Below, one piece after another: positions 9,746-59,617 of a stretch of DNA of 64,000 bases. Numbering within the stretch: the stretch's first letter is position 1; every line of letters begins with the position of its first letter. The notes under the pieces are model-generated. The model ran no database searches. It saw only the letters and a list, made by a program, of their open reading frames with translations, and was not told where the DNA came from. A program made the position numbers and the translations under genes. The DNA comes from Anaeramoeba flamelloides (taxonomy: Eukaryota; Metamonada; Anaeramoebidae): the NCBI GenBank assembly GCA_027625915.1, contig JANTQA010000076.1, positions 1,612,001 through 1,676,000 of the forward strand, in the 5' to 3' direction.

Positions 9746-10180
9746 TGGTGTATATTTCCCTTTAAAAATAGTGAAATCTATGATTTTGACCTGAAATTAC
9801 CTTTGAGGAATTTCAGAGTAAAATGATATATTTTAGGATTATTACTTTGGGAAAATAATTTTTAGTTATCATAAATACAATTACTTTATTAAAATTTAAT
9901 TCTTTGAACTTATTCAGAAAAATCGATCTATCTTTTTTATAGCAAGGGCATACCCATAAAAAATGATCAATATTTTCTATTATTGCTTGATGTTCATACT
10001 TTAAACATAAGGAACAAAATTTTTTTGAATTTTTGTTAGTTAGATAAAAATATCGCAAAACGGTTGGTAAATGTTCTGAACTTCAGAATTGTTGAGCTTG
10101 ATAGATAATTACAATATCTTTTTGTAATAAATAATTTTTTTTTACTTTTTTTATTTTATTATAATTTTCTTGTGTAGTGT

Positions 10181-10220: not shown

Positions 10221-10920
10221 TTTTTTTTATTTTTGAAATTAAAAAAAGCTAAGGGTGTTTTTCCAGAATTCACACGAATAGAGTAAAATTAAAGATAGAA
10301 CTCCATTCTTTTAAATTTTTGAAAACCTAATGACAATTTTCAAACTTGTAGTATTCAACAACCCATTATAAATTTAATAATAAATTTGGTTTTTAAAGAA
10401 GTTTTAAATTAACTCTTAAAATTTTAATTAATTTTATTGTTAATTCTTTGGTTTAATTTTATTAGTTTATCCGGATATGGTATAGAAAAGTTTTTTAATT
10501 TATTTTTAAATTCAAATTTCTATTTGTTTATTGAAATTATCAAATTTTCGATTTTAAATTCTGTTTTGTAAATGAAAATTGTGTATTTTGTTTTATTTTG
10601 CCTATTTCGGTAATACTTGTGTTAATCTAGGAATGTAAATAATTTAGGGTTGCAATTTTAGAGTTATTAATTTCTCAGTCATATGTTAATTAGCTTAATA
10701 TAAAATATTTAAATAATATAATTTTGAAATAATTTGTTAATTAATTATTATTAAATATATGTTTTGAATGGTTATAAGTTTCTTTTACCCTTTTAAAATT
10801 ATAAACTATATGTGCAATTTTTTTCTAAATAAATTCTCAAATATTTAATCTTTGATAAATCTTATGACAATAATTATTTTTTCTTTGTTAGGTAATAATC
10901 CAAATTTAACAAATATTTAA

Positions 10921-12021
10921 GGGACTAGCCTTCTACTACAACAAGGAAAAAATTTAAAATATGTTATTGGTGGTATTCTTTACTTACAAATTTCGTAGAT
11001 CTCAAGTATCAAAAAATTCTGATCGACTAAGAAAACCATAAAAGAAAATTAGTTTAGTGAGATCAATTTTGTTTTATCATTTTTTCTGAAAAAGAAAACT
11101 ATTAAATTCTTTTTTTTTCTCACAATTTATCTGGTTTTTCCGCTTTTTATTGCAATTTTGATCATTATTATACAATAACATTTCTTTGTTACCAGTAATA
11201 TTAATATAAAGATTTTTTTTTCATTTTGGAGATAAAACTTTTGGTTAATGAAAAAAAAACGATATATTCAACGGATTAAAAAATAATTGTTTTTTTTTTT
11301 AAGAAGAGTAGTTATAATAATTAATATTTAAAGTCATGTGTAAATTTTACTCTGAAATTTTGTTTTTATAGTAAGACAAAATTCGATTTTTCAAAATAAA
11401 ATTTTCTTGAAGATATTTGGGAATTAGTTAATTTTTTCCACAAAATTCAAAATCATTTTTTTTCTGCCAAAAATGAATTGAATTGTTTTAAGGATTCTTG
11501 TGAATAAGACCAAACAATTTGTTAAAAAAATTTTTCAAAATTAAAAATTTTTGGAAATCAGAAAACAACTTTTTCAAAACATTAAAGAAAAAATTTTTTT
11601 TGCTTAATAGATCTCAATTTAATTGATAAACTGTAGTTAAGCTTCTACTGAATATTCATTTATTCAATAGTCTATACCACAATTAGTTTTATTGGCCGAG
11701 ATTTGAATTGAAATATTAATCAAAGAAAAAGAAACCAAATAAAAAATTTGCTTTTAAAATCAATACTTTCCAACATAAAACAAAAAATTTGTTTTTCCAT
11801 TTTCAAGAATTAACTTTATTCTTAAACTAATTAATAGGTTACTTTTTTTCGTTTTATATTGGAAACATGTAAATTTTGAATTTCAAAAAAGAGACTCAAA
11901 TCAATAAATTGTTTAAATGGGGCTAACTCATCTATTTCATAAGTCGAAACTAAAATTACAAAAAATAAAAATTTGAAGATCTCGAAAAGATTTCATTTTA
12001 TTTTCAAAAATTACTACTCCC
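10921..12021. mobile_element. TTAA-flanked DNA transposon, family D copy 1 (1101 bp)
   Basis: TTAA flanks lie at 10917-10920 and 12022-12025. The ends are GGGACTAGCC and the reverse complement of GGGAGTAGTAATTTTTG. The copy at 49734-50831 is its reverse complement over essentially the whole length (1098 bp). No protein is encoded. It sits inside the LINE remnant, so it inserted after that LINE. Confidence 0.75.
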
Positions 12022-12480
12022 TTAAGATATTAAGATTAATTTTCCATTTTTTGGATTTATATTTCCTTTAATAATTAAAATCAAACCATTTTCAAACATT
12101 TGACAATGATTTGTTAATGCTATTATGTTTAATAAAAGAAAAGGTGATATAAGAGCAAATAAAATAGGAGAGAATGGATCTCCTTGGAAAATACCAACTC
12201 CTTCCCCTTGATAATATTTTAATAAATTGTTTTTGACAATAATATTAAAAATAAACTTTTTAATTGTTTTTCGAATTATTTTAAAATTGATTCAATCCAC
12301 AAGATTTTGCTAGATCGATCATTATAATATATGTAAAAAAAATTTTTTTTCAAAATAAGAGATTGGTAAATAACAAGAATAAAATAAAAAAACCAACTTC
12401 AAATGATTCTTTGACCATGATCGAAACTTTTTTTTCTGTTAAAGGTTCGTAAAAAAATTTTCAGAAATCAATTTATTTTT

Positions 12481-13340: not shown

Positions 13341-16300
13341 TTAGTTATTCATTGACCGCTTAATATTTTGATAGACCCTTTCAAAATCTGGGTCTTCTTC
13401 ATTTGACAGATTTTCTGCCTCTTGATTCATTACTTGTACTACCAAGAACTCAAGTATGGTTAAATGTATCCAAGTATAAATGATTCCACCTGAATGGTTT
13501 TCAATTCTTTTCAACAGCCCACCATTTCGAGCAATTTCTAACATTTTCTTTTGCATTTTACTTTCACCGTCACCAAAGAATTGGTCCCATTTATTTGTTT
13601 CTTTCTTTTTCCACAAAAGGTTTGTGCTCTGTGTCGTATAAATGACTCTGGTTTTTTGATCCATATGCATTTCTTTTGCCAATTTCAAAAAATATCCCCA
13701 AAATAATTCTAAAGGATCAATTTTATTCTTCAATAATTTATTCAAGCGTGATTCTTCTCTTAGCTTTGTGATCTGTCTTCGGAATAATTTTTCTATATAT
13801 GTTCTATATAGCTCATTTTTTGTTAATTTTAATCTTTTATATGCATCTTTTTCCTGGCCACGAATATATTTGAGGGCTATATCTGGTAATACCTCTGTTA
13901 CCACTTTCAAAACATATGGTGTTTCTATTAGCCCGCTTAGCCCTTCTATTTCTTTGATATACTTGTGGTATTTCTCGACGCCCCAATTTCTTCGATCCCG
14001 CTCATCTGTGTTCTTTATAAAATACCCCAAATATTCATTTATTTGCTCCGGGTTAAACGGTGCTGTATACCACTCTTCTAATAGCCTTTCATCATACTCT
14101 CCGTTGTTGAGAGGTGCAAAGCTTAATTTATAATTTTTAATTAAAAACTCCATTCTGGTTGTGATGAGCACTTTGCTACCACTATAATCTTGCAAAAGTT
14201 TATTTTTGTCAATTATATTTCGTGCATCATTGATTTCGTCATAGCCATCTAAGATGAAGACCAATTGTTTACTTTTTTGCATTTCCTGTATCTCTTTCTT
14301 GTCAAGTTTCCAGTTCTCATGTAACACTTCTTCAACAATGCTGTGCACTGGGTCCCTTAGCATTAACAGTCTTACAAACACTGGTATGATGCTTTCAACG
14401 TTACCTGAATCATACCGCCCCCAGAGTCGCAGATTCAGCATCTCCAAAAAGGTCGATTTACCTGTACCAGCCCCCCCTAACAAGAGAAATACCTTCTTTT
14501 CTTTATTGACCAGAAATTCTTCCACTTTTTCACAAAGATCTTCGGTATATTTGGAATTTTGAGTTCTTCTTCCTCTTAAGGGGATATACATTTGAGACTT
14601 GTTTTTCAAATTTCCAAACTCTTCACTTAATCCCATTTCCCGTTGCTTACTTATCTTTTCCTCGATTGGAGAGACCTCTAACCACTCTATTGGCGGTAGG
14701 AATACCTTTTTTTTTTGTGGTCGCGATATCTTTTCTATTTGCTTGGATTCCTCCTTGTTTACAATGACAGATGGCGTTAATTGCCTCCTTATTTCTTGTT
14801 CTATACACCGGAGCCAGTTTAGATCTAATCGCACAAAGGACATATTAGGACAGAGCAATTTCTGAAAAAAATTGTCTCTTAATTCCTTTCTTGGAACACC
14901 ACTTTCCCTTTCTTTCATTAATAGTAATAGCTGGGAGATCATCATATTTATTATCTCTTTTCTTAAATCCTGATCGACTAAAGCTATGTCTAAATTGCCC
15001 AAAATATTGAAAACCATAATTGCTCCTTTTTTTGATATCCTTTCAATTTTTTCTTTCTTTGTCCCCTGAAAATTGCCACTTTTTTGAAAACTTGTGGAGA
15101 CAACTGTATTTAATAGCTTGATTGATTCGCTTTTGTAACTTTCCATTGTCGTTTCCATTTTTGTTTTATTGCCATTTTCATTAAAAAGAAACTTTTTATA
15201 TATAAAATTTCCAATAATTGCAAAAAGAGCAGCATCAAAAAGGTGTTTAAAATTGCTATTTAATTCCCGTAACATTTCAAAATTTTTTTTGGCACCTTCC
15301 AATTTCCTTAATTTTATCAAGACCCTGACATAGAGTAGTCTGTTTTCCCATTTGCTCTCGTTATATTTAAATCCCTTCTTTAATATTTGCTTGGCATTTT
15401 GGAAATCCTCTCGTTCCAAATAAGCTTGTGCAAGAAGTAGACATATCTCTGCAATCTTGGGATCATTTATCCTCATTTTTAACACATTTTTTGCATTCTT
15501 GATCACGTCTTGATATTTCTCCAGTTCGAGATCGCATTTTAACTGCTCACAGATTTTGGATAGCTCTTTTTTTACCACTTCGCTCTCTGAAAGACTATAT
15601 GCGCTGGGTGTATTCTTCGTCATGAATGCCATAATATTATCACATACAAGCAATCCCTCGCATTTGATCAGGTAACTAAAATTTTCATACCCCATCCTAA
15701 TCCCGGTACCGATCGCGATGCTGTTGACTACACAATTGCCCTGCACTTGAGGGGAGTATGGGAGAATCCCTTTAAATTCTCTTGCTCTTTGAAAATCTGT
15801 TATTACCCTTTCAAACAAATCGGTATTATAAATCATCGATTTTCCGCATTTTTGGTCTTCCCCTCCATTAATTTCTTCATACTCGTAAAATTTGGCAGTC
15901 AGTATATCAGATATGTATCTTTCCAAATTCTTGTCACCCTTGATACGAGCAAAATAAGGATAATATCGTTTTTTAGATTCGTCACAAGGATGGTTCTCTG
16001 CACCTTTGCCTAGATTGTCGATTCTGATGGTAGTGTATTCTGGCGAATACTTGATGAAGGAAATATATAATGCATGATTTTTCCATCCCGACGGTACACT
16101 TATTTCTTTGAGCCGATCCTTCTTTGGCTTTTTTTTTTGGTTTTTTTTTAACAAATGCCTTAATGATTCAATGATTTTCTTTTTTTTTCCCTCAATGGTG
16201 TTGGTGTAAAAAATGTTAAACATCTCAATTTTGAAAAATAATTCCTTGAATAAGCTTTGCTCAAATTTCACGGGCATCCCAATTAGATCTTCGTTTCCCC

Positions 16301-19300
16301 AAAAATCTGGTATCTTGCTCGATAGCCCATAAAGTATTGCAAAATATGTCCGTATTATTATTGCCAATCCGGATTGTTTATCCCATCCCTCAAGATCAAC
16401 CTTTCTTGAGATGTGGTCCTTATAGGTATCTAATTCCTTTTGGTAGCTTTGTGTGTCGTTAAAATTGGAATCTACATACATTGGGGGTATGTATTTTTTT
16501 ATAAATGTATTTATAAGCTTAAACTCGGGTAGGACATCATTTGAATCGAGTTCAACAGCTTCAATTAAACTTCGCTTGGTGGTAAATCGTTTGCTGTCGA
16601 TATTCTGTTTGGAAAACTGCTGAAAATCTCTTTGTAATTTTCCCAGGCTGATCCTTGTTTGTTCTCTTGAAAATGCTAGCATGCATTTGGCTTGCCGATG
16701 TTCTGGTGAAATCTGTGATACCAATTCGAAATAAATAATTGCTTCATCAAATCTTCCCAGCTTTGTTAGTATCATGCCAAGCCAATAGTAAAGATTCACT
16801 TGTGTTCGGTCCCTTTTGATTGCATTGTAAATCATATCTAGTGCATCCCTGTACTCGCCCCGTGCGTAGTACAAGTTAGCCTGGACTTTAGGATAATCTT
16901 TATCATCTTTTTTCGATTTCTTGAGGGCATTTTCAAAATCCTTAATTGCGATTTCCTGGAAAAATGATTCCTGGCTATCTTGCTGCGTCACAGTTGCTCT
17001 TTGTGTGTTTTTTCCAACAAATTCTCTAACGTTTAATGGGTTGATAAAGATTTCAGTTTCCCAGGCATTGATGTTTAGCTTGATTTTTTGCTTCCCTTTA
17101 TGATCTTCTTGGATGGATAGTGTTCCCTTGTCCGTCAACCCCTCTTCATCGATTTTTGTAATGGAATATTTAAAATAAGGAAATAATGGGTTCCCATCTA
17201 GATCTTTCAAAATTCCAATGTACTTAAAGAAATATTCCTTTTCTGCAATCTTTGGCTTAAAATTGAGTACGTATAAATGCCCATTACCAATCTTGATTCC
17301 AAATATGTGTTTGTTATCAGATTTCAATATGCTGAATTGGTTGTCATATTTTAATAATCTGGATAAGGTACGTTGCTTGTTGAATTTTCTATTTATACCC
17401 GCGAGTATGATATGGTTTAAAATACTCTGTTTACCCTTTTCTATAAAAATTAATTGATTAATATTGACCTCATACTTACTTTTAGATAATGTGTCTTTGT
17501 TCATTATTTTCACGAGGCCATCACCGAGGTCATACAGAAAATTTACTTTTGGATCCAAACATGATAATTTATCCATAATACTTGTTTTTTTCATTTGGTT
17601 GAAATTAACTTGTTCTCTCCAATCTATTGGCCTTAAGTATTGATACTGAAACCCATCATATTCTAAAAAAATCATTGGCACACCAAAGTTGTAAGTGGTG
17701 TTACATGGAGAATTGGATCCCCTGATTTTAATAACACTGCATATACCAAAATAATCTGACAGAAAATCCAATTGAATCACGCCTCCTTGGATGTTGACTT
17801 TCAAAATCTCCTTCGCATAGCCACAGAATCCCTCTTCATCCCACCATTGTCGCATTTTGTTTATAACTTCGTTGATCGTTGTAAACTCTTTTTGTCCATG
17901 GAAGTCATCCAATGTCTTATCCCCATTGGTAATCATTTCGATAATATCTGTAATGGTTTTAGAATTATGAATTTTTTTTAATTGCATCTTAATTAGCTTA
18001 CATTCTCCAAAATGATAATGAAGAACCTTAGAAGTAGGGTTTTTATTAAAAATTAATGTTTTGAACTTTTCAAACAATTTCATTTTGATCTTCTCATTTT
18101 GTGGTAATTCCTCTTTTACTAATTTTTGAAGAATTAACCCCAACTTCTCTTGACTATATTCTTTTGTAAAAAATGTGTAAACTTGTTTGAATTGCTCTTC
18201 TTGATTATTTTTGTTTTTATTATTATTTATTTTTAAACTACCAAGATCTTTTTTTTCGATATTTAAAGTTGAAAAAAGTTCCAAAAATACTTTGTGCTTT
18301 TTTGGGGATAACTCTATCCTCCCTAATAAAATATTATCCCTTAATCCTTCTCCAAATGCATTATACATGCAGTTTAGTCCAATACCACTGGCATTCACAC
18401 GAGTACATTGAATTGGATCAATTACATCAATAAGACTTACTTGTATTGTAAGTTTTTCGTCATCTTCTAATAAATCTTGACTAAGATCATTATAGTTATT
18501 ACTCACTTTATTATCATCTATTTCCAAATTTGTATCAGAAACATCTTTTCTCATATTTCCCTGAAGTGCTTTTTCCATATATTCTAAATATACTTCTCCT
18601 CTACAATTAAGGGATTTATTTGTTTTTTTTTTCATTTTGATAATCCAGTCATAATATTTCAAAGCCCTTACAAACTCTCCCTGGTAACTATATACAGTAC
18701 CTAAGAATAAATAGTATTTGTATTCTTTTTCACTGATTTTTATTTTCTTGTTTCTGTTTTTGTTCTTGTTCTTATTCTTTTTCGCTTTTTTTTCCCTTTT
18801 CCTTTTCTTTTGTTTTAGAAGATTTCTTAAAACTTGTATGGCCTTTTGATAAAGGCCAATTTGGATTAACTTTTTGATGGACATTTTAGGTGATTTTAAT
18901 TCAACATTGATTGTTTTTACCTTTTTAATTTTTAATTTTTGGTAAGTATTTCTCAATAATTGAAAATTCTTGGTTACTTTTTTTACCTTATCTTGCATAA
19001 AATATGTTTTAGCTATTAAAAAATAGCAATTATTTTGAAAGTTTGGATTATCCTCTGTCTTTTCAATGGCTGCAAGAAAGCATTTTCTTGCTGATTTAAA
19101 GTTACCTTCTTGATAATTTTTGATTCCATTTTTTAAAATCTTTTTAGGTTTCGTATTTTGTAATTCCTGTTTAATTTCGATTCCATTAGAAAATACATCT
19201 TCACCTGATTCATTAATCCCTTCAATAAAAAACATTACATTATCATATTCATCTTTGTAATTGGGTTTTTCATGTATTTTATCACTTTTATTTGGAATTA

Positions 19301-20126
19301 TTTTTTTCTTTTTTCGATCTTTCTTCTTTTTTTTTTCTTCTTCGTCTTCATTATCATATTCTTCTTCATTCTTATTCATCATCTTATTCCTATTCTTTTC
19401 TTTTTCATTTTTCTTTTCTACAGTATTTTCCTTTGATTTTGATTGTTCTTTCTCAAGTGTGTGTTTTAAATTATTTTCCTTTGTATGTTTTTCCTTTTCA
19501 CACACTTCTATTTCATTGTTTTCATTAGACAGTGATGAACATGTTGAAGTAGTACTTGTTGTTATCAATTGCTCAAATTCAAGATTTAGTTTATTTTTGA
19601 TTTCTAACATTAGTGGATTTATCATTTGTTTTTTTTTTTTAGGTGCTTCATCTTCAATCCATTCATCCAAAAGTTTTAAATTATTTTTAATGTTATTTTT
19701 AATATTGGGTCCTTTTTGAATAATTATTTCATCATCTTCTAAACTTGTTAAAATTTCAATTAAAATATTATGAATATTTTTTAAACTGGTTTCATTGTTT
19801 CTTAGTTGTTTTATTAATGTTTCAAATAATTTTATAATTTTTTCCCAATATTCCCCTCCTTTTAAACCATGGGGTCTAATTATTATTGTTAAATTTTCCT
19901 TTATATTCTTATGTAATTCAGCATAGTGACTTTCGCTGTTTTTTTGTGTAATATTTAATAAACCTTTGATTTTGTTGCTAAATGTTTTTGAGGAATTCCC
20001 ATTTTGCATAACAAATGCTCCCCAACCTTTGGATCTATGTTCAAAAAATTGGATTTGTGTTCTATCCAAAGTAAATAATATTTTGTTATTTACTTGATCG
20101 TTGGTGTAGTATTCATATATACCCAT
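13341..20126 (-). CDS. Giant TPR / OTU-like / NACHT NTPase protein (2261 residues)
   Basis: ATG at 20124-20126, single uninterrupted frame. Order of parts: N-terminus of unknown fold (1-190); Lys/Glu low-complexity linker (about 200-285); TPR-like helical repeats (about 335-500); an OTU-like segment with G-L-N-C-M-Y-N-A-F (Cys near 584), then W-W-D-E-E-G-F and, near 829, D-G-F-Q-Y-Q-Y-L, where OTU-type enzymes normally have a catalytic His; a second TPR block (about 1065-1160); a Cys-centred segment with N-H-A-L-Y-I, R-I-D-N-L-G and Q-G-N-C-V-V-N (Cys near 1464), which could be a permuted papain-like fold; a third TPR block (about 1540-1635); and a NACHT-type NTPase with Walker A G-G-A-G-T-G-K-S (near 1883), Walker B F-I-L-D-G-Y-D-E (near 1957) and L-I-T-T-R. 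No LRR or WD repeats follow. Probably a STAND-class sensor or scaffold. The NACHT and TPR calls are firm; the protease-like calls are inference. Confidence 0.85.
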   Translation of the reverse strand: MGIYEYYTNDQVNNKILFTLDRTQIQFFEHRSKGWGAFVMQNGNSSKTFSNKIKGLLNITQKNSESHYAELHKNIKENLTIIIRPHGLKGGEYWEKIIKLFETLIKQLRNNETSLKNIHNILIEILTSLEDDEIIIQKGPNIKNNIKNNLKLLDEWIEDEAPKKKKQMINPLMLEIKNKLNLEFEQLITTSTTSTCSSLSNENNEIEVCEKEKHTKENNLKHTLEKEQSKSKENTVEKKNEKEKNRNKMMNKNEEEYDNEDEEEKKKKKDRKKKKIIPNKSDKIHEKPNYKDEYDNVMFFIEGINESGEDVFSNGIEIKQELQNTKPKKILKNGIKNYQEGNFKSARKCFLAAIEKTEDNPNFQNNCYFLIAKTYFMQDKVKKVTKNFQLLRNTYQKLKIKKVKTINVELKSPKMSIKKLIQIGLYQKAIQVLRNLLKQKKRKREKKAKKNKNKNKNRNKKIKISEKEYKYYLFLGTVYSYQGEFVRALKYYDWIIKMKKKTNKSLNCRGEVYLEYMEKALQGNMRKDVSDTNLEIDDNKVSNNYNDLSQDLLEDDEKLTIQVSLIDVIDPIQCTRVNASGIGLNCMYNAFGEGLRDNILLGRIELSPKKHKVFLELFSTLNIEKKDLGSLKINNNKNKNNQEEQFKQVYTFFTKEYSQEKLGLILQKLVKEELPQNEKIKMKLFEKFKTLIFNKNPTSKVLHYHFGECKLIKMQLKKIHNSKTITDIIEMITNGDKTLDDFHGQKEFTTINEVINKMRQWWDEEGFCGYAKEILKVNIQGGVIQLDFLSDYFGICSVIKIRGSNSPCNTTYNFGVPMIFLEYDGFQYQYLRPIDWREQVNFNQMKKTSIMDKLSCLDPKVNFLYDLGDGLVKIMNKDTLSKSKYEVNINQLIFIEKGKQSILNHIILAGINRKFNKQRTLSRLLKYDNQFSILKSDNKHIFGIKIGNGHLYVLNFKPKIAEKEYFFKYIGILKDLDGNPLFPYFKYSITKIDEEGLTDKGTLSIQEDHKGKQKIKLNINAWETEIFINPLNVREFVGKNTQRATVTQQDSQESFFQEIAIKDFENALKKSKKDDKDYPKVQANLYYARGEYRDALDMIYNAIKRDRTQVNLYYWLGMILTKLGRFDEAIIYFELVSQISPEHRQAKCMLAFSREQTRISLGKLQRDFQQFSKQNIDSKRFTTKRSLIEAVELDSNDVLPEFKLINTFIKKYIPPMYVDSNFNDTQSYQKELDTYKDHISRKVDLEGWDKQSGLAIIIRTYFAILYGLSSKIPDFWGNEDLIGMPVKFEQSLFKELFFKIEMFNIFYTNTIEGKKKKIIESLRHLLKKNQKKKPKKDRLKEISVPSGWKNHALYISFIKYSPEYTTIRIDNLGKGAENHPCDESKKRYYPYFARIKGDKNLERYISDILTAKFYEYEEINGGEDQKCGKSMIYNTDLFERVITDFQRAREFKGILPYSPQVQGNCVVNSIAIGTGIRMGYENFSYLIKCEGLLVCDNIMAFMTKNTPSAYSLSESEVVKKELSKICEQLKCDLELEKYQDVIKNAKNVLKMRINDPKIAEICLLLAQAYLEREDFQNAKQILKKGFKYNESKWENRLLYVRVLIKLRKLEGAKKNFEMLRELNSNFKHLFDAALFAIIGNFIYKKFLFNENGNKTKMETTMESYKSESIKLLNTVVSTSFQKSGNFQGTKKEKIERISKKGAIMVFNILGNLDIALVDQDLRKEIINMMISQLLLLMKERESGVPRKELRDNFFQKLLCPNMSFVRLDLNWLRCIEQEIRRQLTPSVIVNKEESKQIEKISRPQKKKVFLPPIEWLEVSPIEEKISKQREMGLSEEFGNLKNKSQMYIPLRGRRTQNSKYTEDLCEKVEEFLVNKEKKVFLLLGGAGTGKSTFLEMLNLRLWGRYDSGNVESIIPVFVRLLMLRDPVHSIVEEVLHENWKLDKKEIQEMQKSKQLVFILDGYDEINDARNIIDKNKLLQDYSGSKVLITTRMEFLIKNYKLSFAPLNNGEYDERLLEEWYTAPFNPEQINEYLGYFIKNTDERDRRNWGVEKYHKYIKEIEGLSGLIETPYVLKVVTEVLPDIALKYIRGQEKDAYKRLKLTKNELYRTYIEKLFRRQITKLREESRLNKLLKNKIDPLELFWGYFLKLAKEMHMDQKTRVIYTTQSTNLLWKKKETNKWDQFFGDGESKMQKKMLEIARNGGLLKRIENHSGGIIYTWIHLTILEFLVVQVMNQEAENLSNEEDPDFERVYQNIKRSMNN

Positions 20127-24230: not shown

Positions 24231-25354
24231 TTTAAAAGTGTAATCTTGGATTATAAACAAAAACTAATCTAAATTTGACATATTATATTAAAAAAATAAA
24301 TAAATTGAAAATAATGAAGATCTGTATAATATTTTCTATGGAATCACACAGAAGATGAAAATCCTTATAAAATCTGTGTATCTTAGCAAATATAATATTA
24401 ATAACTTACCTACTATATTGAATATTATTGATAATAGTAATAATAATATGAAAAGATCCTTTAGGTTAAATATCACAAGTGTATAAAGATTTTATTATTG
24501 AAATCTTGATAAAATCATAAATTTTTATTTGTAAATTTGGGAAGTGTGCCTAAGTTCTTAGAGTAAATTGGAGTACATATTTGTTTTTTTTTTTATTCTA
24601 AAAATTAAAACAAAATTTAAAAAAAAATTCTTTGTATTTCTGGAATCAAACAAAAATATAAACCCCCAGTTTTCTTTTGGTATCTTTTTTATTATTAGAA
24701 TCTATTTTAATATTGAATAAACAGAAAATTTAAGAAAAAATAACAATGTGTTTTTTATTTTAAGATTTACAAAGAAAATTTCTTGATATTTCTTTTAATT
24801 TCTTCAATAAAAAAAATGGCTAACAAGATTTGTTTATCAACCTCCATTTAATAACGATAATAATAATTAGTTTATTTTTTTATCAACACCTTTTCAAACT
24901 GTTGCAAAGTGGTTATGTTGAAATTTCTCAAAAAAATGATGTATCATTGTGTTTTAAATAGTTTACTATATGTTATATATTTTTTTTGAATAATTATAAT
25001 TTGGTTAAATATCTATTCTTTTAAATAGACAAAATTTAAATAAAATTAATTTTTGGTATCTAATCCTCTTATTAATCAATTAGTTATAAGTGAAATTTAA
25101 AAGAAATTTTAGTAATATTTTTTTTTTTCTACTTTGATCTCTCCAAATTTTTAAAACTTGGAATTTTTTTCTTTTGATTTAGAATTATTTATTTTTTTTG
25201 GTGGGTACTATAAATTCTAAATAATTGTCAACGCATCAATTAATTAATTTTTCCGATTTCGAATTTCATAAAGAATTTATTTTTATCTGATTTTTTATAA
25301 AATAAAATATTTTCTGGTATGGAAAAAATTTGTAATTGTGGTTTATTTGGAAAA
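24231..25354. other. Gene-free AT-rich stretch
   Basis: A short piece of repeat F (GTGCCTAAGTTCTTAGAG) lies at about 24545-24600. Otherwise no structure was found. Confidence 0.5.
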
Positions 25355-26285
25355 GGGGCTAGTATCTATTAAATTTTTTTAAGGTAAATTTAATAGAGAT
25401 TTAGAATTTTTTTTTTCCAATTACTTAGATTTAAAATCAAAGTGAAAAACTTCTAGTTATATTAATGAAATCTCGATAAATGACATTCATTAAATTTATT
25501 TATTGTTTTTATAGAAATAAAAAATTTTTCTATTTTTTCACTTTTTTGAAAGTTGCTTTTTTTCAACTTTTGGCAAAAATACAAAAAATAAAAAAAAAAA
25601 TATGAGCCAGAAAGCAAAATCATGTTGTTTTTTTGGTAGAAAGGCAAAAAATAATTTGAAAAATAGACCTGAAAAGTTATTTTGGATTTGCATGAAAAAT
25701 AGTTTGATTCGAAAAAAATATACAATATATGCTTTACTCAAAATAAAAAAATTTCTTTCTTTTCCTTGTGCCATTCTTTTTTTCTTGTTTCTACTTTTTG
25801 AGTTTACATTCTTTTGTTTTTGTTGAATTTGAAGTTTTTTTAAGTATTCTCAAATTACCATTCCAAAAATTTTTGCCAAGGCCAAAAAAAAATAAAAGAA
25901 AAGAATAAGAACTATTTTTTAAAAAAGTAATTATTGACAAAACAAATTGAGTTCTTTATAGTGTCAAGTTGGATGAACAGAAGTGAATAAGAAAATATTC
26001 ACCAGTTTTAAATTATTTTTTCGTATTTTCAAACGAGAATAAATATTAATTTCGAGAAAATAATTAAATCCAAAATTTCTCATCCATTTAAAGATATTTT
26101 TTTTAAAAAAAAATTTTTAAAAGTCACTTTTTTTGACTAGAATTGTAAACTTTTTAAAAAAACAAGAACTAAAAGTTCAAACATTGAAAAAAACTGTCTA
26201 TTTTCAATTTTAAACATATTTCAAGATAAGGATTCCTTATTTAGTTATTGGTCAAAAAAAAAAAAAATTAATAGAGACTAGTCCC
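25355..26285. mobile_element. TTAA-type DNA transposon, family E copy 1 (931 bp)
   Basis: Reverse complement of the element at 58683-59613, with the same length of 931 bp. Ends: GGGGCTAGTATCTATTAAA on the left and, inverted, GGGACTAGTCTCTATTAAT on the right. TTAA follows the right end (26286-26289); the left flank is AAAA instead of TTAA. The reading frames inside (25462-25725, 25538-25774, 25602-25826) recur in the other copy but look like repeat sequence, not genes. Confidence 0.75.
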
Positions 26286-26289
26286 TTAA

Positions 26290-27385: not shown

Positions 27386-28847
27386 TTAATTGATTTGTTT
27401 CTGTAACTGGTGCCATAATAAATTGGATTCATCGTTTAATTGGAAATAATCTGAGGCTTCTTTGAATTCATTAATAACCTTTTCATCTAATTTGTCTTCG
27501 AGTTCGATATTTGATGTGTAAAGATATTTAATAAATATTTTCCAAAACGATAAAGATCTTTTTGAATAATCTGTAACTTGATTTGTTGTGTTGTGTTCTA
27601 TTGATTGAAAGAAGTTTCGAAACATTCCGCTTCTGGATACTAAAACCCATTTATGGACTTTAATTGTTGTGGGGTTATTTTCATTTGACTTTTCATCTGT
27701 GATTATGATTTCAAAGTCTTTTGATTCTTCATCAAAATACAATTGGGTCAAGCAATGGTGCCAATCAATGATTGTTGTTTTGGGATCAATTGTTTTGATT
27801 ATTTTTTTATATTCTTGTATTTCTTCCTTTCCTTTGTCCATTTCCTTGAAAAAACTCTTAACAAATAAATTTTTGATTAATTCATCTTTTCCTGAATAAG
27901 CCCAAATCAAAAATGATTTTATATATTCGTCTTCATCTTCCTTTTCCTTTCCGATTTCCTTTAATTTGTCAACGATTGTTTCAAATTCCAAGATTTGTGA
28001 TTGGAATCTTGATTTGATCAGACTTGGTTCATATTTGATTTTCCCATTTTCCTTTGTGCCAAATTCTTGTCTTTTAACGTATTGGATCAAATCCTTTTGG
28101 AGTTGTCTTTTGGGTAACAATTCTTGATATTTCTTCTCAACAAGATCATGAACATCACAACCATAAAGATAATCGTCTTCCCCACAAAAATAGTTAATGC
28201 CAACACCATCGCTATACCCCATAATAATTACAAAGGGGATATTAAACTTTTTGCCTTCCTTTGTTGTGAGATTTTTGTTTTGTTCTTCAAGCCAATTTTC
28301 ATAAATGGGCAACAGTAATTCACCAACGATGTCTTGGTATTTAAATAAGTTTGGGATATAAATAGGTTTTGTCATAAAATCATAAAATTTATCTTTATTC
28401 ACCACATCTGTATAAAGTTTTAACTTTTTTTCTGCTTTTTCAGGATTAAGGTAGTCCTGTAGAAATTCCTTGTATTCATAAAATTCGAGATATAACATAT
28501 ACTGATCGATCTCGTTGTCAAATCCCTTTTATTTTTTTTTTTTTGTTTTTTTTTTTTGTAAAAGGGGAAAAAGGTTGGTTTTTTATTGAATTATTCATTC
28601 TTCATTTTAAGAAAATAATAAAGAGAACCAAAAAAAATTTTTTGAGAGAAATTAATACTTTGGGTGATTCCTTGTTACAAGAGTTCGTCCACTTAAAAAA
28701 TGGTTTTATGTTTTTGTTAATTTTTTGGGCTTGTTTTTGTAACATATTATTTTTTTCTTTTTCGAATAATAGTTGTTGTTTCAATTTCTTGATTGTTTCT
28801 CCATCAGTGTTGTTTGTATTGTTATTGTTTATTGTTTCTTCAGTCAT
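27386..28847 (-). CDS. BTB/POZ-domain protein, minus-strand member of a head-to-head pair
   Basis: Two exons: 28847-28659 (63 codons, start M-T-E-E-T-I) and 28501-27386; the 157-base intron begins GTATTA and ends ATCAG, phase 0. The product has 434 residues. Exon 1 is Asn-rich followed by a short coiled-coil-like segment (K-K-L-K-Q-Q-L-L-F-E-K-E-K). Exon 2 has a first, degenerate BTB-like half (ending F-L-I-W-A-Y-S-G-K) and a canonical second BTB: D-F-E-I-I-I, V-H-K-W-V-L-V-S-R-S-G-M-F-R, V-T-D-Y-S, I-K-Y-L-Y-T-S. BTB domains dimerise and often recruit CUL3 ligases; the partner here is unknown. No RCC1 repeats are present. The plus-strand twin begins at 30333. Confidence 0.8.
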
Positions 28848-29106
28848 TTTACTCAAAAAAAAAAAAAAACAAAAGGATTAAAAAAGGAAATATGAAAAAA
28901 AAAAAGTTTAAAAAAATAAAATAAAAAACAAGTAAAACATTGAAAGATTAAAGTTAAAAAGAGATTTGGGTTTATTTTGATTTGGAGAAAGGAAGAAATG
29001 ATTGACAGATCTTAATAGAGTTTTGTAATCCAGGTTTTTTCTGCTGAAAACTGGTTGTTGATCCACAAACAAAAATATTTTGGGTTTTTAGTTAAATTAA
29101 CGGATA

Positions 29107-30075
29107 TGTTAAATATAAAAGAAAAAGATCAAAGTATTCGTTTTACTGTATCCAAAAAAATTTAGGAAGAATTCGAACCAAAAAAAGAAATAGAGACATT
29201 TCCCGATTCATAATTTTTAGTTTTTTCTTCTTTCAGAATTTAAAATTTGAAAATTATACTGATTCAGAAAATCTTTTCTTGGAAAGTTGATTGAATATTT
29301 TGTTCCTTTTATTTTCAGAAGGTACACCTTTAGTATCTTCTCTTGGTTACAAAATAAAAGGATCAAAATTTTTATTCAACTTTCTAAGAAAAGATTTTCG
29401 AAATTTTTTTAACCGAATTGAGAACAAAAGTGAACCGAATTGGACTTTCCGTACAATCCGTCGATTCGTTTCTTGGACTAGGTTTTTTCTGTCGAGTCAG
29501 GTATCTTGTAATGGGGTTTTGCGAAAACAAGATTTGAGAAACTTGCAAAAAAAAAAAAAAAAAAGCAACTGAAATTTTCAAAAACAAATTCTTATTCTTA
29601 AAAAACCTCTGCACTTTATAAATGTACTCTATCTATAAAGTTCGAATTAGAAACTTCATAAAGTAACCTATTTTAATTGATCTATAGTTGTTTAAATATT
29701 TAAAACTCTTTATTAAAACAAACGATGAGGCGATCCAAAAAAATCGACATCAAAGGAATCAACCACCAACCCATTCAACACTTGGGAAACAAAAAAAACT
29801 TTTCGATGAAGTTTTTTCTTTTTTTCTTATTTTTTTACTCTCTTCCATTTCTTGCTTTTCTTTCTCTTTTTCTTGTTCATGTTTAAAAATAATTTATTCT
29901 TTTCATTTTTTAAGAGAAAAGTTATCCTCTGAACTGTAATCCTGCCTACACCACAGTTCGGATAAAAAACACTAAATACAATTTTAGAGTTTCTGGAAGT
30001 GCCTTAGTTTTTTTTAATTTGAGAAATAAACCGAAAATTAAATAAATTTTCGTTTTTTTTTTACAAATTAACAGT
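29107..30075. other. Spacer between the divergent BTB genes
   Basis: No gene. It holds a 50-bp-arm hairpin (29266-29400) and, at about 29985-30060, a fragment of repeat F (AAGTGCCTTAG). Both BTB genes would be transcribed away from it, so it, or the duplicated arms next to it, may hold their promoters. Confidence 0.5.
29266..29400. repeat. Imperfect hairpin, 50-bp arms, 35-bp loop
   Basis: Arm 29266-29315 pairs with arm 29351-29400 at about 44 of 50 positions. Shared core: GAAAATCTTTTCTT at the outer end and TCCTTTTATTTT at the inner end. It could be a small MITE, a cruciform or a transcribed stem. Confidence 0.8.
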
Positions 30076-30332
30076 AGCCGTTAATTTAAATAAAAACCCA
30101 AAATATTTTTATTTGTGAATCAACAACCAGTTTTCAGCAGAAAAAACCTGGATTAAAAAACTCTATTAAGATCTGTCAATCATTTCTTCCTTTCTCCAAA
30201 TCAAAATAAACCCAAATCTCTTTTTAACTTTAATCTTTCAATGTTTTACTTGTTTTTTATTTTTTTTTTTAAACTTTTTTTTTTCATATTTCCTTTTTTA
30301 ATCCTTTTGTTTTTTTTTTTTTTTTGAGTAAA

Positions 30333-31793
30333 ATGACTGAAGAAACAATAAACAATAACAATACAAACAACACTGGTGGAGAAACAATCAAGAAATTGAA
30401 ACAACAACTATTATTCGAAAAAGAAAAAAATAATATTTTAGGTAAAATTGTTAAAGAAAAAAAATTAATGGAGAAAAACTATTACAATTTATTCAAAAAG
30501 ATCCACAACGATGTCACCGAAGTAATATTTTTGATTTTGATTCTTTCCTTTTTTCTTTATTTTACTCTAATAAAGGCTTTAGTTAAAAAAAAAAAAAACC
30601 AAATCAACCTTTTTTGCATTCACAAATAAAAAACAAAAAAAATAATAAACACAATTAAAAAGGAAACTGATACTGACTGCCATGCCCAGATGGTCTTTAA
30701 AAGTTTTAAATTTCTCCAATTTCAAGAAATTAATTTAGAGGATCAAAATAATAGGGAACTCTATCAAAATTCAATTGGCAAAGAGAAATGTTTGGAAATA
30801 ACAAACGATAATGACAATACCTTTTTTCATCCCGTACTTTTTAGCACAGAGGATGTGATCACTGATCTATTGTTGCCCCTTTATGAAAATTGGCTTGAAG
30901 AACAAAATAAAAATCTCACAACAAAGGAAGGCAAAAAGTTTGTTGTCCCATTTGAAATTCAAGCAGGTTACCCGAACGAAGTGGATGAAGAGAGCAAGAA
31001 AACGTTTTATGGTTATAACATTCACGATCTTGTTGAGAAGAAATATCAAGAATTGTTACCCAAAAGACAACTCCAAAAGGATTTGATCCAATACGTTAAA
31101 AGACAAGAATTTGGCACAAAGGAAAATGGGAAAATCAAATATGAACCAAGTCTGATCAAATCAAGATTCCAATCACAAATCTTGGAATTTGAAACAATCG
31201 TTGACAAATTAAAGGAAATCGGAAAGGAAAAGGAAGACGAAGACGAATATATAAAATCATTTTTGATTTGGGCTTATTCAGGAAAAGATCACATAGCCGA
31301 CAACAAACCTCTTAAAAAATATCTTAAAGACCAACAAAAGGAACAAGGAAAGGAAGAAATTAAAGAATTTCAAAAAATAATCAAAACAATTGATCCCAAA
31401 ACAACAATCATTGATTGGCACCATTGCTTGACCCAATTGTATTTTGATGAAGAATCAAAAGACTTTGAAATCATAATCGCAGATGAAAAGTCAAATGAAA
31501 ATAACCCCACAACAATTAAAGTCCATAAATGGGTTTTAGTATCCAGAAGTGGAATGTTTCGAAACTTCTTTCAATCCACAGAAAATAAAACAACAAATCA
31601 AGTTACAGATTATTCAAAAAGATCTTTATCGTTTTGGAAAATATTTATCAAATATCTTTACACATCAAATATCGAACTCGAAGACAAATTAGATGAAAAG
31701 GTTATTAATGAATTCAAAGAAGCCTCAGATTATTTCCAATTAAACGATGAATCCAATTTATTATGGCGCTTATTACAAAATAAAATCAATTAA
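30333..31793 (+). CDS. BTB/POZ-domain protein, plus-strand member of the pair
   Basis: Two exons: 30333-30521 (63 codons) and 30690-31793; the 168-base intron runs from GTAATA to CCCAG, phase 0. The product has 430 residues. The frame opens with TTG at 30324, but the first ATG is 30333, after a T-rich tract. Layout is the same as in the minus-strand twin: Asn-rich start, short coiled coil, degenerate first BTB half ending I-W-A-Y-S-G-K-D, canonical second BTB with V-H-K-W-V-L-V-S-R-S-G-M-F-R and Q-V-T-D-Y-S. The second half of exon 1, the start of exon 2 and the segments around P-F-E-I-Q-A-G-Y-P and H-I-A-D-N-K-P differ strongly from the twin, while blocks between them are almost identical. 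Likely an adaptor protein; partner unknown. Confidence 0.8.
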
Positions 31794-39490: not shown

Positions 39491-40482
39491 CAGCTTTACA
39501 CAAGAGTAAATACGAATGTTATAAAAAATAGAGTTTTTGATTTTTTTCTATTTTTTCCCTTGTTGAATTTCCTTTTTATTGAGAAGAAGAGTTACTAAGG
39601 AGAAAAATCAAGTGGTTACCTACTAATACTCGAAGAACAGAAACTAGTCGGTATGGATAACTTGAAAATAAAAAGAAAAGACAAAAACAAAAACTGGAAC
39701 GATCAAAAAAGATTGGATCAAAAAGAAAAAAAAATGGCAGCTACTAAAAAACTACCTCTCAACGAAGCATTCATGATTTCTTAGAAATAATTAAAGGACA
39801 AAATTTTAAATAAAAGGATCATGTCTGTTTTAATGAGTATTCTTGATAAAAATGGACAGTTGGTTTTTTTTTTGATTTTTTATCAACTGTCAAAAAAAAA
39901 TTTCTTTTTTTGTTTACTAACTTGCTTTTTTTTTTTTTTTTTTCCTTTTCTTTTTTTTTTCTTTTTAATTTTTCTTTTTGTTTTTTCAACCAATAAAAAA
40001 TTGGAACCTGCTCGATTCCAAAAAATTTTTTTTTTCTTTATCATCTAAATTACTAATTTACCATTAGTAATCAGAGCTGTAAGAGGATCTTTGATCTCTC
40101 CCTTCAACCAATAAAAAAAAAAAAAAAAAATAGAGTTTTTACAATTTTGGAGATAAATAAAGAGTTCCGTGTATTTATCTAAATTTTGATAATTGTAAAT
40201 ATAATATCCGATTATCTGAGTGGACAATAACAATTTGAATCAAAAAATGGTTTGGCAAATAATAATCTTCCAAATTGTAAAAAGAAACATATTTCAAACT
40301 ATGTATTGGTATTTACCAAACGATTTTGTTTTGAAAATCAATTTGATCTCAAAAATCAAAACGGGTATTTTGTTTACTATTACGGAAATTTGGATAAATA
40401 CACGGGTCTCTTTATTTATCTCCAAAATTGTAAAAACTCTATTTTTTACAACATTCCTCCATTACAATTGTGCACTGAACTG
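39491..40482. mobile_element. TA-flanked fold-back element interrupted by a retroposon
   Basis: TA (39489-39490) then CAG on the left; ACTG then TA (40483-40484) on the right. The arms are inverted over more than 100 bp (GAATGTTRTAAAAAATAGAG, then ACAATTTTGGAGATAAATAA). Once the retroposon at 39539-40130 and one copy of its target duplication are set aside, the element is about 390 bp and would fold into a long hairpin. Non-autonomous; Tc1/mariner-type flanks. Confidence 0.7.
39539..40130 (+). mobile_element. SINE-like retroposon, family I copy 2 (592 bp, with TSD)
   Basis: Same start (GATTTTTTTCTATTTTTTCC) and A tail (CCAATAAAAAA, 40108-40130) as copy 1. Flanked by TAGAGTTTTT at 39529-39538 and 40131-40140, possibly extended by preceding As. 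It is inserted in an arm of the fold-back element; the other arm (around 40430-40455) shows the uninterrupted sequence. Confidence 0.8.
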
Positions 40483-42960: not shown

Positions 42961-43683
42961 TAAAAATTTCAAAGTACAGTTAAATAACTTTAAATATCAG
43001 ACTTAAAGACAAAATTATTGGTAAAATACATCTTAATTCACTTTGTTAGAATTGGAAATAAGAAGATCAGAAAATTCCCAAACTTTGCCTAATAATACAA
43101 TGAATTCTCAAAATCTTTCCACAACAACTACATTGCTATCCTAAACTTTTAAGCGTTCTAATCTCTTTCTTATCTGTAGTTATCTAAAATTATTTACTTA
43201 AATTTTCTCAAAGAAAAAGTTTATGTTTAAAAAAAAATAAATAGCTTAAATATCATTTTTCAAAGTCAAATTTCATTAGTAAAATACTTCTTATTGGACC
43301 CAAATTAAACAAAAGAAGATCAGAAAATTTTCAAACTTTGCCTAATTACGAAAGGATTTCCAAAAATCTTTCCACACTGTCTACATTCCCACTCTAATCT
43401 TTTGAGTGCTCTTATCTCTTTCTTATCATGTAGTTTTCTGGAATTAGAATAGTTAAATTTTTATAAATAAAATGTTGGGGTTTTTAAAAAAATAATAGCA
43501 CAGCAATTTTCACTAATATTCACAATTAAAAATCTTTTCAGGGATTTTCTTCAGGTCAGGTATTTTTTTTTTTACCTCTACTTTTATAGATTTTTTATTT
43601 TTTTCACCTTTTTACATTCCAAACAACTCAGAAAAGAAAGGTTGAGTTTTAAGGTTTTTTTTTGAGATCCCTTTTTGCTAATA
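42961..43683. other. Upstream region of the LRR gene
   Basis: Two diverged copies of a short segment (GAAGATCAGAAAATT, then AAACTTTGCCTAAT) lie at about 43062-43095 and 43315-43350, a local direct repeat of about 250 bp. About 43500-43610 is repeat H in inverted orientation. No promoter motif can be named. Confidence 0.5.
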
Positions 43684-46600
43684 ATGTCTAGTTCTCCAAA
43701 AGTTGTAAACCTTCTGAAAATGTTAAAATCAAATAACAAAATACTTACTGAACTGGATCTTTCCGATAATATATTAGTTTCAGTAGGAACTAAACAACTA
43801 AGCGAAGCATTGAAAGTCAACCAAACCCTTACCTTCTTAAATCTCAAAAATAACCGTCTCGGATCAGAAGGAGCCAAGCACCTAAGCGAAGTACTCAAGG
43901 AAAACCAAACATTGGCTAGTTTGGATCTTACCTATAATAAAATAGGATCAAATGTAATGCAACACCTAAGCGAAGCACTGAAAGTCAACCAAACCCTTAC
44001 CGCCTTAAATCTCTCCAATAACTCTCTAGGATCTGATGGAGCCAATCATATAAGCGAAGCACTCAAGGAGAACCAAACCCTTACCGCCTTAAATCTCTCC
44101 AATAACTCTCTAGGATCAGAAGGAGCCAAGCATATAAGCGAAGCACTCAAGGAGAACCATACATTGATTAGCTTGGATCTTTCCAATAATAAAATTAATG
44201 GAGAAGGAGCCAAGCATCTAAGCGAAGCACTCAAGGAAAACCAAACATTGGTTAGTTTGGATCTTAAAAACAATGCAATTGGAGCAAAAGGAATGCCATA
44301 CCTCAGCGAAGCAATGAAGGAGAACCAAACCCTTACCTTATTAAATCTCAACTATAACTCTCTAGGATCAGAAGGAGCCAAGCATATAAGCGAAGTACTC
44401 AAGGAGAACCATACATTGATTAATTTGGATCTTTCCAATAATAAAATTAATGGAGAAGGAGCCAAGCATCTAAGCGAAGCACTCAAGGAAAACCAAACAT
44501 TGGTTAGTTTGAATCTTTCCCGCAATAACTTTGATGAAGAAGGAATCAAATATATAAGTGAAGCACTCAAGGTAAACCAATCATTGGAAATACTTATTCT
44601 GGCCTCAAGTCAAATTGGCACAGAAGTAGCAAAATACGTCAGTGAGTCTCTCAAGGAGAACCAAACTCTTACCAAATTGGATCTTTCTTTTAACGAATTG
44701 GGATCAGAAGCAGCGAAATACCTTGGTGAGTCTCTCAAGGTCAACCAATCACTTACTCAACTGGATCTTAAATATAACGAAATGGGGCCAAAAGGGATAA
44801 AATTTTTAAGTTTGCCTTTAATTGACAACAAGGCGCTATCTAAACTTGTTCTTTCATACAACAAAATTGGAACAGAAGAATTACAATCTATAAGTGAAGC
44901 ACTAAAATTCAACCAAACCCTTACTTTGCTGGATCTTTCTTTTAACCAAATTTTCTCAGATGACATGCAGTGCCTCAGCGAATCTCTCAAGTTAAACCAA
45001 ACACTACTTTTCCTGGATCTTAAATATAATCAAATTGGAGCAGAAGGAATGCAATACCTCAGCGAAGCTCTCAAGACCAACCGAACTCTCCTTGAGCTTA
45101 ACCTTATCGATAATCAGATCGGAGACGAAGGGTCCAAACACTTAAGCGAAGCACTCAGGTGCAATCAAACCTTGACTCATTTACATCTTTCTTTAAATCC
45201 GATTGGAACATTGGGAACCAAATACCTCGGCGAATCACTCAAGGACAATCAAACACTTACCAGCTTAGTTCTTTCTTTAAATAGAGTCCGAAAAAAGCAA
45301 AATAATAAAGGCATTATAAAAGGCGCAGAAAAAATATATGAAGAATTACTACAGGTATTAAAAAACAATAAATCTCTTATCAAACTATTTCTTTCTGATA
45401 AAAGAAGGGCTTATAAGGAAAACCCCCTAGAAAATGATAATTTCATAACAAGAAACAAAAAATTTCAAAAAAAGTTAACCAATTCAGCCAAAGATGGAAA
45501 TTTAGAACGATTCAAAGAATTAATACAAATTGAAAAAATACCCTTAATATACCAAACATCTTCCACTTTATCAGAGAAACCATATTTAAAACTAAAGGGA
45601 AAAGATGAAAATACAATTTTACATACAGCCATACTTAATAATCAAATAGAAATTATTTTTTATTTATTATTTGCAAACGATGAACAAAAAGACCATCAAA
45701 TTATTTCAAAAAGAAATCATTTATTTAATTTAAAAAATTCAACAACAAGAAAAAGTGCACTTGATTTATTAAACCCAAATGAAATTTTAATCCAAGATTT
45801 TAATAATTATTATAATCAATTTATTTCAACACCTTCTTCCTATTCATATTCAAAATCAATTTATTCCAATAATAATGATAAATCAAATAATAATTTCCCA
45901 AATAAAATATTGGCAGAAAAGGAAATAATCTTGATGAGAATTGGGAAAGAATGGAAAACAATCAAAAATGAATTCAAAAATGAATTAACTGAAAAGCAAA
46001 AGCAATTATTTTTAAAATGGTTATACTGCCCGGTTTCTTTGAATTTTCAAGAAAAGCAAATAATTCTTGGAATTTTCAAATTATTAAATCTTTTTCAATT
46101 TCAAAAACAAGAGCAGAAATTTCAGAAAGAACTAAAAACAAATCAAAAAACAACAGACCACGAAAATAAGGAGAATGGTGATGATGATGAAGATAAAAAA
46201 GATGAAGAGGGGGTTGAAAATAAAAAGGATAAGGAAAACGAAAATGGAAATGAAAAGGAAAACGAAAAGAAAATAGAAGATGAAAAGGAAAAGGAACAAG
46301 AAATTAAAAAGGGAAAGGGGAAAGGAAAGGAACAAGAATATTTTAAAATTAATGAGAAGAAGGGGAAAAAAGAAAAAGGGAAGGAAGTAATAAAGAAAAA
46401 AGAAAGCTGTGAAAAAATAAGTAATATTGGAAAAAATGAAGAAGAAGAACAGGAAGATAATAAAGAAAAAAATACAAATAAAAAAGAAATTTCACAAAAA
46501 TATTTATTTTCAAATCAAAAATTATTTAATGATTTCAAAAATTATATCAATAAATATGCTAATTCAGAAAAAAAAAAATTTGTGATCAATCGAAAAAAAA

Positions 46601-47235
46601 AGAAGAAGAAGAAGAATGGGAACGAAAATGAGAATATCAAAATCAAATCAATTAAAATAAATAAATTTATTCTTTGTTTAAGATCAAATTTATTTCGAGA
46701 TATGATTTTAAATACATATCATTTACAATTAGAAAAGGAAAAGGAAAGGGGAAAGGGGACTGAAAAGGGAAAGGAAAATGAAAATGAAAAGGAAAAGGAA
46801 AAGGAAAAGGAAAACGAAAAGAAAAACGAAAAGGGGAAGGAAAAGAAAAGGGAAAGGGGAAAATTAGATATAAATTGTGTTACTGATTATTTTAAGTCAA
46901 TTCCCGAATTTCATTCATTTCTATTATCTGAATTATATAATATGACTTGTTTTAACTTTCATTTTGAAAATAAAAATAATAAAAAATTAAAAGGTACTAA
47001 TAATACCATCAAAACAGAAACAAAAACAACAGAAAAAAAAACTCCAACCTTTCCAGAATTTTCAAAACCGTTAATATTAACAAGTACAAAAGCAAAAAGA
47101 ATAATAAAAAATTTTAAACAAACCAATATACAAAATTTAATCAATTTCTTTAGAGAAAATGATGTTTCTGGTTTCTATCAAACAAATCCTCTATTGTTTA
47201 TTTATAATTTATATATTTTTTCTCAAAAATTATAA
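43684..47235 (+). CDS. Leucine-rich-repeat / ankyrin-like / split BTB protein (1183 residues)
   Basis: The frame opens with TTG at 43675; the first ATG is 43684. Residues 1 to about 535 are some nineteen 28-residue repeats of the ribonuclease-inhibitor/NLRC3 type (L-x-x-L-x-L-x-x-N-x-I/L-G-x-E-G-A-K-x-L-S-E-A-L-K). Residues about 599-665 look like one to two ankyrin repeats (A-K-D-G-N-L-E-R-F, N-T-I-L-H-T-A-I-L-N-N). Residues about 760-796 (Q-L-F-L-K-W-L-Y) resemble the end of the degenerate first BTB half seen in the other BTB genes here. A Lys/Glu tract (about 820-940) follows. A BTB-like domain then appears in two parts, K-F-I-L-C-L-R-S-N-L-F-R-D-M (about 994-1007) and C-V-T-D-Y-F (about 1064), separated by a second Lys/Glu tract. 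A cytosolic scaffold or recognition protein is likely; ligand unknown. Confidence 0.85.
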   Translation: MSSSPKVVNLLKMLKSNNKILTELDLSDNILVSVGTKQLSEALKVNQTLTFLNLKNNRLGSEGAKHLSEVLKENQTLASLDLTYNKIGSNVMQHLSEALKVNQTLTALNLSNNSLGSDGANHISEALKENQTLTALNLSNNSLGSEGAKHISEALKENHTLISLDLSNNKINGEGAKHLSEALKENQTLVSLDLKNNAIGAKGMPYLSEAMKENQTLTLLNLNYNSLGSEGAKHISEVLKENHTLINLDLSNNKINGEGAKHLSEALKENQTLVSLNLSRNNFDEEGIKYISEALKVNQSLEILILASSQIGTEVAKYVSESLKENQTLTKLDLSFNELGSEAAKYLGESLKVNQSLTQLDLKYNEMGPKGIKFLSLPLIDNKALSKLVLSYNKIGTEELQSISEALKFNQTLTLLDLSFNQIFSDDMQCLSESLKLNQTLLFLDLKYNQIGAEGMQYLSEALKTNRTLLELNLIDNQIGDEGSKHLSEALRCNQTLTHLHLSLNPIGTLGTKYLGESLKDNQTLTSLVLSLNRVRKKQNNKGIIKGAEKIYEELLQVLKNNKSLIKLFLSDKRRAYKENPLENDNFITRNKKFQKKLTNSAKDGNLERFKELIQIEKIPLIYQTSSTLSEKPYLKLKGKDENTILHTAILNNQIEIIFYLLFANDEQKDHQIISKRNHLFNLKNSTTRKSALDLLNPNEILIQDFNNYYNQFISTPSSYSYSKSIYSNNNDKSNNNFPNKILAEKEIILMRIGKEWKTIKNEFKNELTEKQKQLFLKWLYCPVSLNFQEKQIILGIFKLLNLFQFQKQEQKFQKELKTNQKTTDHENKENGDDDEDKKDEEGVENKKDKENENGNEKENEKKIEDEKEKEQEIKKGKGKGKEQEYFKINEKKGKKEKGKEVIKKKESCEKISNIGKNEEEEQEDNKEKNTNKKEISQKYLFSNQKLFNDFKNYINKYANSEKKKFVINRKKKKKKKNGNENENIKIKSIKINKFILCLRSNLFRDMILNTYHLQLEKEKERGKGTEKGKENENEKEKEKEKENEKKNEKGKEKKRERGKLDINCVTDYFKSIPEFHSFLLSELYNMTCFNFHFENKNNKKLKGTNNTIKTETKTTEKKTPTFPEFSKPLILTSTKAKRIIKNFKQTNIQNLINFFRENDVSGFYQTNPLLFIYNLYIFSQKL

Positions 47236-49609: not shown

Positions 49610-49733
49610 TTTTTTTTTATTGAGGAGGAAGTGTAGATTACACTCTAAGTGCCCTTAAACTTAAATTTCCTGTCAGAAATTTAAGCGTTAAATCATAGAT
49701 TTTATGATTATTAATTAACAAAAATAATTTTAA

Positions 49734-59613: not shown

Positions 59614-59617
59614 TTAA

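Follow-up and report, generated by a model that had tools for sequence, protein, structure and literature searches.

A recombinational mosaic of old and recent segments in an inverted pair of BTB genes from Anaeramoeba flamelloides

Two neighbouring BTB genes of Anaeramoeba flamelloides lie head-to-head as mirror images, and they raise the question of how stretches that are almost identical and stretches that can hardly be aligned came to alternate along a single gene pair. We examined the pair within a window of 64 kb (the whole stretch of DNA that was analysed; 74.3% A+T), following up an original prediction of gene conversion between the two arms combined with diversification of surface loops.

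Structure and domains of the gene pair

Gene A (28847-27386, minus strand) and gene B (30333-31793, plus strand) have their ATGs 1486 bases apart, and the arms are separated by a spacer, as listed here with protein lengths that leave out the stop:

27386..28847 (-): gene A, ATG at 28847 and stop at 27386; predicted exon 1 28847-28659, intron 28658-28526, exon 2 28525-27386; 442 amino acids
30333..31793 (+): gene B; predicted exon 1 30333-30521, intron 30522-30662, exon 2 30663-31793; 439 amino acids
29134..30047 (no strand): spacer between the arms, with hairpin-like self-complementarity at 29262-29404 and, at 29587-29836, pieces similar to 247-346 and 868-981

In both genes, exon 1 is predicted to comprise 189 bases (63 codons) and to end at a phase-0 GT...AG intron, of 133 bases in A and 141 bases in B, which is followed by a single long exon 2, in agreement with the inverted copies of the same exon structure described by the original prediction. 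The reading frames and predicted splice sites are intact in both genes, and exon 2 is open in each despite a 9-base difference in length. Pfam scans, which covered exon 2 (E up to 0.1), placed a C-terminal BTB domain (PF00651) in A (E 1e-07, 32.5 bits) and in B (E 6.3e-09, 36.4 bits), both scores exceeding the gathering cut-off of 20.5, indicating that both genes belong to the BTB/POZ family. No RCC1, Kelch or MATH substrate domain was found in exon 2 of either gene by these scans, and the sole other match, RMC1_C in A, was below its own cut-off. In having a C-terminal BTB and a less conserved remainder, A and B resemble BTB/POZ substrate adaptors such as the MATH-BTB proteins of CUL3 ligases (PMC6883508); unlike those adaptors, they showed none of the three substrate domains in exon 2. 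The best solved relative of a three-row profile was KBTBD4 (E 8e-05), and a structure prediction for exon 2 of A with three aligned rows was unusable (mean pLDDT 39.5).

Alternation of blocks and islands

The two genes align, sense to sense, from about 255 bases upstream of the ATGs through the stop codon, and along this alignment near-identical blocks alternate with diverged islands (A coordinates before B coordinates):

28744..29103 (-) and 30078..30436 (+): block 1, upstream flank plus codons 1-34 of exon 1
28314..28743 (-) and 30437..30871 (+): island 1, end of exon 1, whole intron and start of exon 2; 203 of 426 columns differ
28245..28313 (-) and 30872..30940 (+): block 2, 2 of 69 differ
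28148..28244 (-) and 30941..31025 (+): island 2, 44 of 86 columns differ
27884..28147 (-) and 31026..31289 (+): block 3, 263 of 264 identical
27808..27883 (-) and 31290..31371 (+): island 3, which holds 14 identical bases
27413..27807 (-) and 31372..31766 (+): C-terminal BTB block, 8 of 395 differ, 5 of these within 13 bases
27602-27590 and 31577-31589: small island inside the C-terminal BTB block, 5 of 13 differ
27386..27412 (-) and 31767..31793 (+): C-terminal tail island, a differing part and then ten identical bases to the stop

The segments described earlier as hardly alignable (second half of exon 1, start of exon 2 and two inner segments) correspond to islands that are about 47% different, and the C-terminal BTB block is nearly identical, as had been claimed. 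The 264 bases thought to be identical are block 3, where identity is near-complete and is broken by one silent T/C difference (27935 / 31238). The small island of the BTB block, the differing part of the tail island (7 of 17 at 27412-27396 / 31767-31783) and the upstream homology of about 255 bases before each ATG (29103-28848 / 30078-30332, ~96-97% identical) are additions to the original description. Block 1 consists of two conserved runs, one of 192 columns with 5 differences and one of 162 with 2, and between them a 6-column misfit with 3 differences in a T-rich run. Past the stop codons, 300 bases of A and B showed no similarity above shuffles (z -1.2, chance level).

A two-state HMM fitted to the 1710 columns yielded difference rates of 0.013 in the blocks and 0.473 in the islands, with a log-likelihood gain of 241.4 over a one-rate model. 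The dispersion of differences per 50 bases was 14.8, and the longest identical run was 212 columns, compared with at most 66 across 2000 shuffles. Evenly spread differences had been named as the outcome that would speak against a patchwork; checked base by base, the differences are strongly clustered, as in paralogues under interlocus gene conversion with islands of divergence.

The other repeats of the window served as controls. Thirteen hand-picked repeat pairs gave gains of 0.8-14.1 and dispersions of 0.55-2.07. In a wider set of all 54 other repeat rows of length 100 or more, which are not independent because repeat families and overlapping or related rows recur among them, every row was weaker than A/B (gain 0.0-23.7; dispersion at most 6.23 where computable). 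These rows are mostly non-coding in appearance, so that they show ordinary decay in this window, not the behaviour of constrained genes. Their longest run was matched by 3 or fewer of 300 shuffles in 8 of the 54, including 3 overlapping LRR rows aligned to themselves, which carry no information. Since tandem LRR copies (gains up to 23.7) and a couple of self-palindromes (40125-40447 and 51186-51420, with clustered differences and gains of 19.0 and 16.6) ranked highest, patchiness is present elsewhere in the window, but far less than in A/B. When A/B was scored as two BLAST rows without island 1, the gains were 93.4 and 10.8 and the dispersions 15.9 and 1.2; on its own the upstream row (block 1) is unremarkable, and the contrast between island 1 and its neighbours accounts for the remaining gain. 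Apart from A/B, the most clustered differences in repeats of the window belong to an LRR_6 gene (43675-47235, plus strand; 1186 aa), whose 84-base repeats are alike at the DNA level and whose product has weak ankyrin and BTB matches below cut-off. Long inverted dispersed repeats (10917-12028 / 49727-50835 and 25353-26289 / 58679-59615) are 88-89% alike, with evenly spread differences.

Ages and relatives of the segments

Silent sites differ sharply between the two kinds of segment. Where A and B encode the same degenerate amino acid, the codons differed silently at 8 of 264 positions in the blocks, compared with 17 of 41 in the islands (Fisher p 2.8e-11); 18.6 of 41 would be expected in the islands if the genes drew codons at random from their own usage. 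Because the segments for this comparison were drawn by eye, the test was repeated with the surroundings scored by amino-acid mismatches alone. Silent changes then affected 4 of 184 codons with no differing residue nearby, 0 of 54 and 6 of 33 in intermediate neighbourhoods, and 15 of 34 where at least half of the neighbours differed, an association reached by none of 100000 permutations. Nei-Gojobori Ks was 0-0.054 in blocks 1 and 3-5, bearing out the earlier statement that silent sites agree in the blocks, and 0.24 in block 2, a short block whose 26 codons carry 3 silent changes, two at the block edge. In the three larger islands Ks was 2.0, 2.6 and 1.0, values that are imprecise so close to saturation and rest on uncertain alignments. 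Non-synonymous divergence did not exceed synonymous divergence in these islands, contrary to what recognition genes under diversifying selection would show, with Ka/Ks of 0.38, 0.30 and 0.49 at near-saturated Ks; the ratio was about 0.39 in a 4-codon island, and Ks was not computable in the C-terminal tail. The introns are 62% identical, above shuffles (z 3.7). At silent and non-coding sites, then, the islands are old and the blocks recent. Blocks of differing age were also considered; a common age was not rejected by a chi-square test of low power (p 0.24, leaving out the 6-column misfit of block 1). Composition did not differ consistently between blocks and islands, the G+C of island 3 being 0.22 in A and 0.33 in B.

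The proteins encoded by the islands were compared with shuffles. The head of exon 2 was similar between A and B in global alignment (z 5.5, none of 2000 shuffles as good) and more weakly so in local alignment (z 3.2, 23 of 2000 as good). Island 2 reached z 4.8 with its edges and 2.8 for its core alone, and island 3 reached 6.6 with its tail and 3.2 alone, while the tail of exon 1 had no significant similarity (z 0.9). Since the inner and exon-2 islands are still alike as proteins, they look old rather than unrelated, and with the exception of the exon-1 tail we prefer old homologous divergence over the insertion of unrelated sequence.

A relative of the pair is present in the same window, an RCC1-BTB gene (53576-54745, minus strand) with significant similarity to the C-terminal half of A (32.6% identity over 218 columns) and of B (30.8% over 224). 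Its N-terminus is RCC1-like, whereas the N-terminal parts of A and B have no significant similarity to it and, by shuffle test, are unrelated to the RCC1 proteins of the window. Further exons are likely for this frame and for a second RCC1-like frame (57718-58353, minus strand). Block 3 also aligns with the RCC1-BTB protein (z 7.6), from which we suspect that both genes encode a second, degenerate BTB; Pfam reports one BTB only. In A, 20 of the 65 aligned positions of block 3, 20 of 58 of block 4 and 25 of 58 of block 5 are identical to the RCC1-BTB protein, indicating that these blocks are not intrinsically frozen. An apparent closeness of island 1 of B to the RCC1-BTB protein (21 identities in 78, against 5 for A) disappeared in shuffles (B z 0.44, A z -0.62). 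No donor of island sequences was found within the window, pattern matches to A/B in viral and prokaryotic contigs were not confirmed by tblastn, and Rfam and ARAGORN searches of the window returned nothing.

Origin of the mosaic

Because segments of these homologous genes have unequal ages, recombination is required; the pair is a recombinational mosaic, most likely due to interlocus gene conversion. We propose an old inverted pair of homologous BTB genes whose parts did not evolve as units, an explanation that we consider, as a whole, evenly poised between right and wrong. The near-identical blocks (the upstream flank together with early exon 1, the middle block and most of the C-terminal BTB) would have been kept recent by repeated conversion between the two mirror-image copies themselves. 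The islands (the stretch from late exon 1 through the intron into exon 2, both inner segments, the two very small patches and the 3' end) would have escaped conversion and retained their old divergence, either by heterology halting the conversion tracts or by selection removing converted versions. Recombination is hardly to be expected between sequences that differ at 47% of their sites, so that conversion at a late stage, after full divergence, is unlikely, and conversion would therefore need to have been continuous since the duplication. From the pattern we infer conversion as the process and its recurrence, and in the same way its direction (homogenisation of blocks, not import of islands) and any part played by selection in keeping the islands. 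The divergence of sequence beyond the blocks, in the C-terminal tail and 3' flank among other places, speaks rather for the version with repeated conversion. Several features pull the other way. With two sequences and no outgroup, the import of patches into a recent duplicate fits equally, and the homogeneous divergence of the blocks (in a test of low power) is also expected from a single recent event. Without selection, islands of only 13 and 17 bases could hardly persist next to long identical blocks while conversion recurs. The exon-1 tail also lacks significant similarity, and similarity is only moderate in the cores of islands 2 and 3.

In the import version, which we take seriously while leaning against it, the gene and its 5' flank would have been duplicated recently in inverted orientation, after which one or both copies received patches of diverged sequence from other members of the family. 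This version accommodates the similarly low divergence of the blocks and the near-identity of ~255 non-coding bases, which conversion of already diverged flanks would not easily make; very short islands are easier as imports, and a related BTB gene lies nearby. Yet no donor was found in the window, and the 3' end would require an import extending beyond the stop codon. A recent duplicate whose surface loops were pushed apart by diversifying selection on amino acids is highly improbable, even though exon 2 stayed open through its length change and the 13-base island, the only one that could be placed, falls within the BTB stretch aligned to KBTBD4, at what we take to be a loop between a helix and a strand of the BTB fold. 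Such selection would leave the silent sites of the islands like those of the blocks; they are instead saturated, differing about as often as random codon use would predict. Divergence also extends to the 3' flank and to the intron within island 1, and Ka/Ks is 0.30-0.49 in the larger islands. Islands driven apart by diversification, as the original prediction had it, are thus contradicted as the primary cause; selection may nevertheless preserve them. Its proposal of gene conversion between the arms fared better, in that exchange between the copies or with relatives explains why the blocks agree at silent sites. An assembly artefact, in which two haplotypes or distant loci were wrongly joined head to head, would suit a window rich in repeats; judged from the assembled window, we think it quite unlikely, since a fold-back should give identical arms and not open copies with saturated islands and distinct flanks, and the mosaic between the two sequences would remain even if they had been wrongly joined.

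Old paralogues with blocks kept alike by repeated conversion have a counterpart in the copepod Tigriopus californicus. In its GOT1p1 and GOT1p2 genes, regions of low divergence alternate with highly diverged ones, a pattern ascribed to interlocus gene conversion that is still going on, and Ka/Ks is low; the intron of GOT1Sd/GOT1Sr is largely unalignable between little-diverged coding regions (PMC3728101). A and B share with GOT1p1/GOT1p2 the paralogue pair, the alternation and the low Ka/Ks, and the phenomenon is therefore already known. Several populations were sequenced in the GOT1 study and conversion was inferred by GENECONV, whereas one copy of each gene is known for A and B; unlike GOT1, A and B are inverted BTB genes in which one diverged stretch spans coding sequence and intron. 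A/B has the signature of a known process, the copying of patches between relatives, in a sharp form. We recognised no report of the pair in the literature, mostly outside subscription papers, on Anaeramoeba (with or without BTB) or on conversion in inverted or protist gene pairs, and the main text of PMC11550330 (on ignava), as far as it was available, does not contain the word BTB.

The pair offers a clean case of adjacent gene segments with very different ages, and for this reason whole-gene trees or duplication dates of such families would mislead. We also entertain an idea that is unlikely to be right as it stands: A and B might be one of many pairs in a large BTB family, in which constant blocks are combined with old variable segments that are exchanged and shuffled by conversion between inverted neighbours. 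Such a family would generate adaptor diversity in the manner of cassettes within a free-living protist, and might serve to discriminate among symbionts or among prey. Should it turn out to be modular, the family would be a protist example of diversity arising from shuffled old segments.

Other frames of the window include two that are retroelement-like to our eye (12025-12291 and 9816-10082, both minus strand), in which Pfam reported nothing. A 2261-aa open frame (13341-20126, minus strand) has TPR repeats and a NACHT domain above Pfam cut-offs, an NLR-like architecture. A 1577-aa frame (2824-7557, plus strand) has a C2 domain and two hydrophobic termini, the C-terminal one preceded by a long Ser-Pro-Ala repeat, and its product, judged by eye, may be a surface protein.
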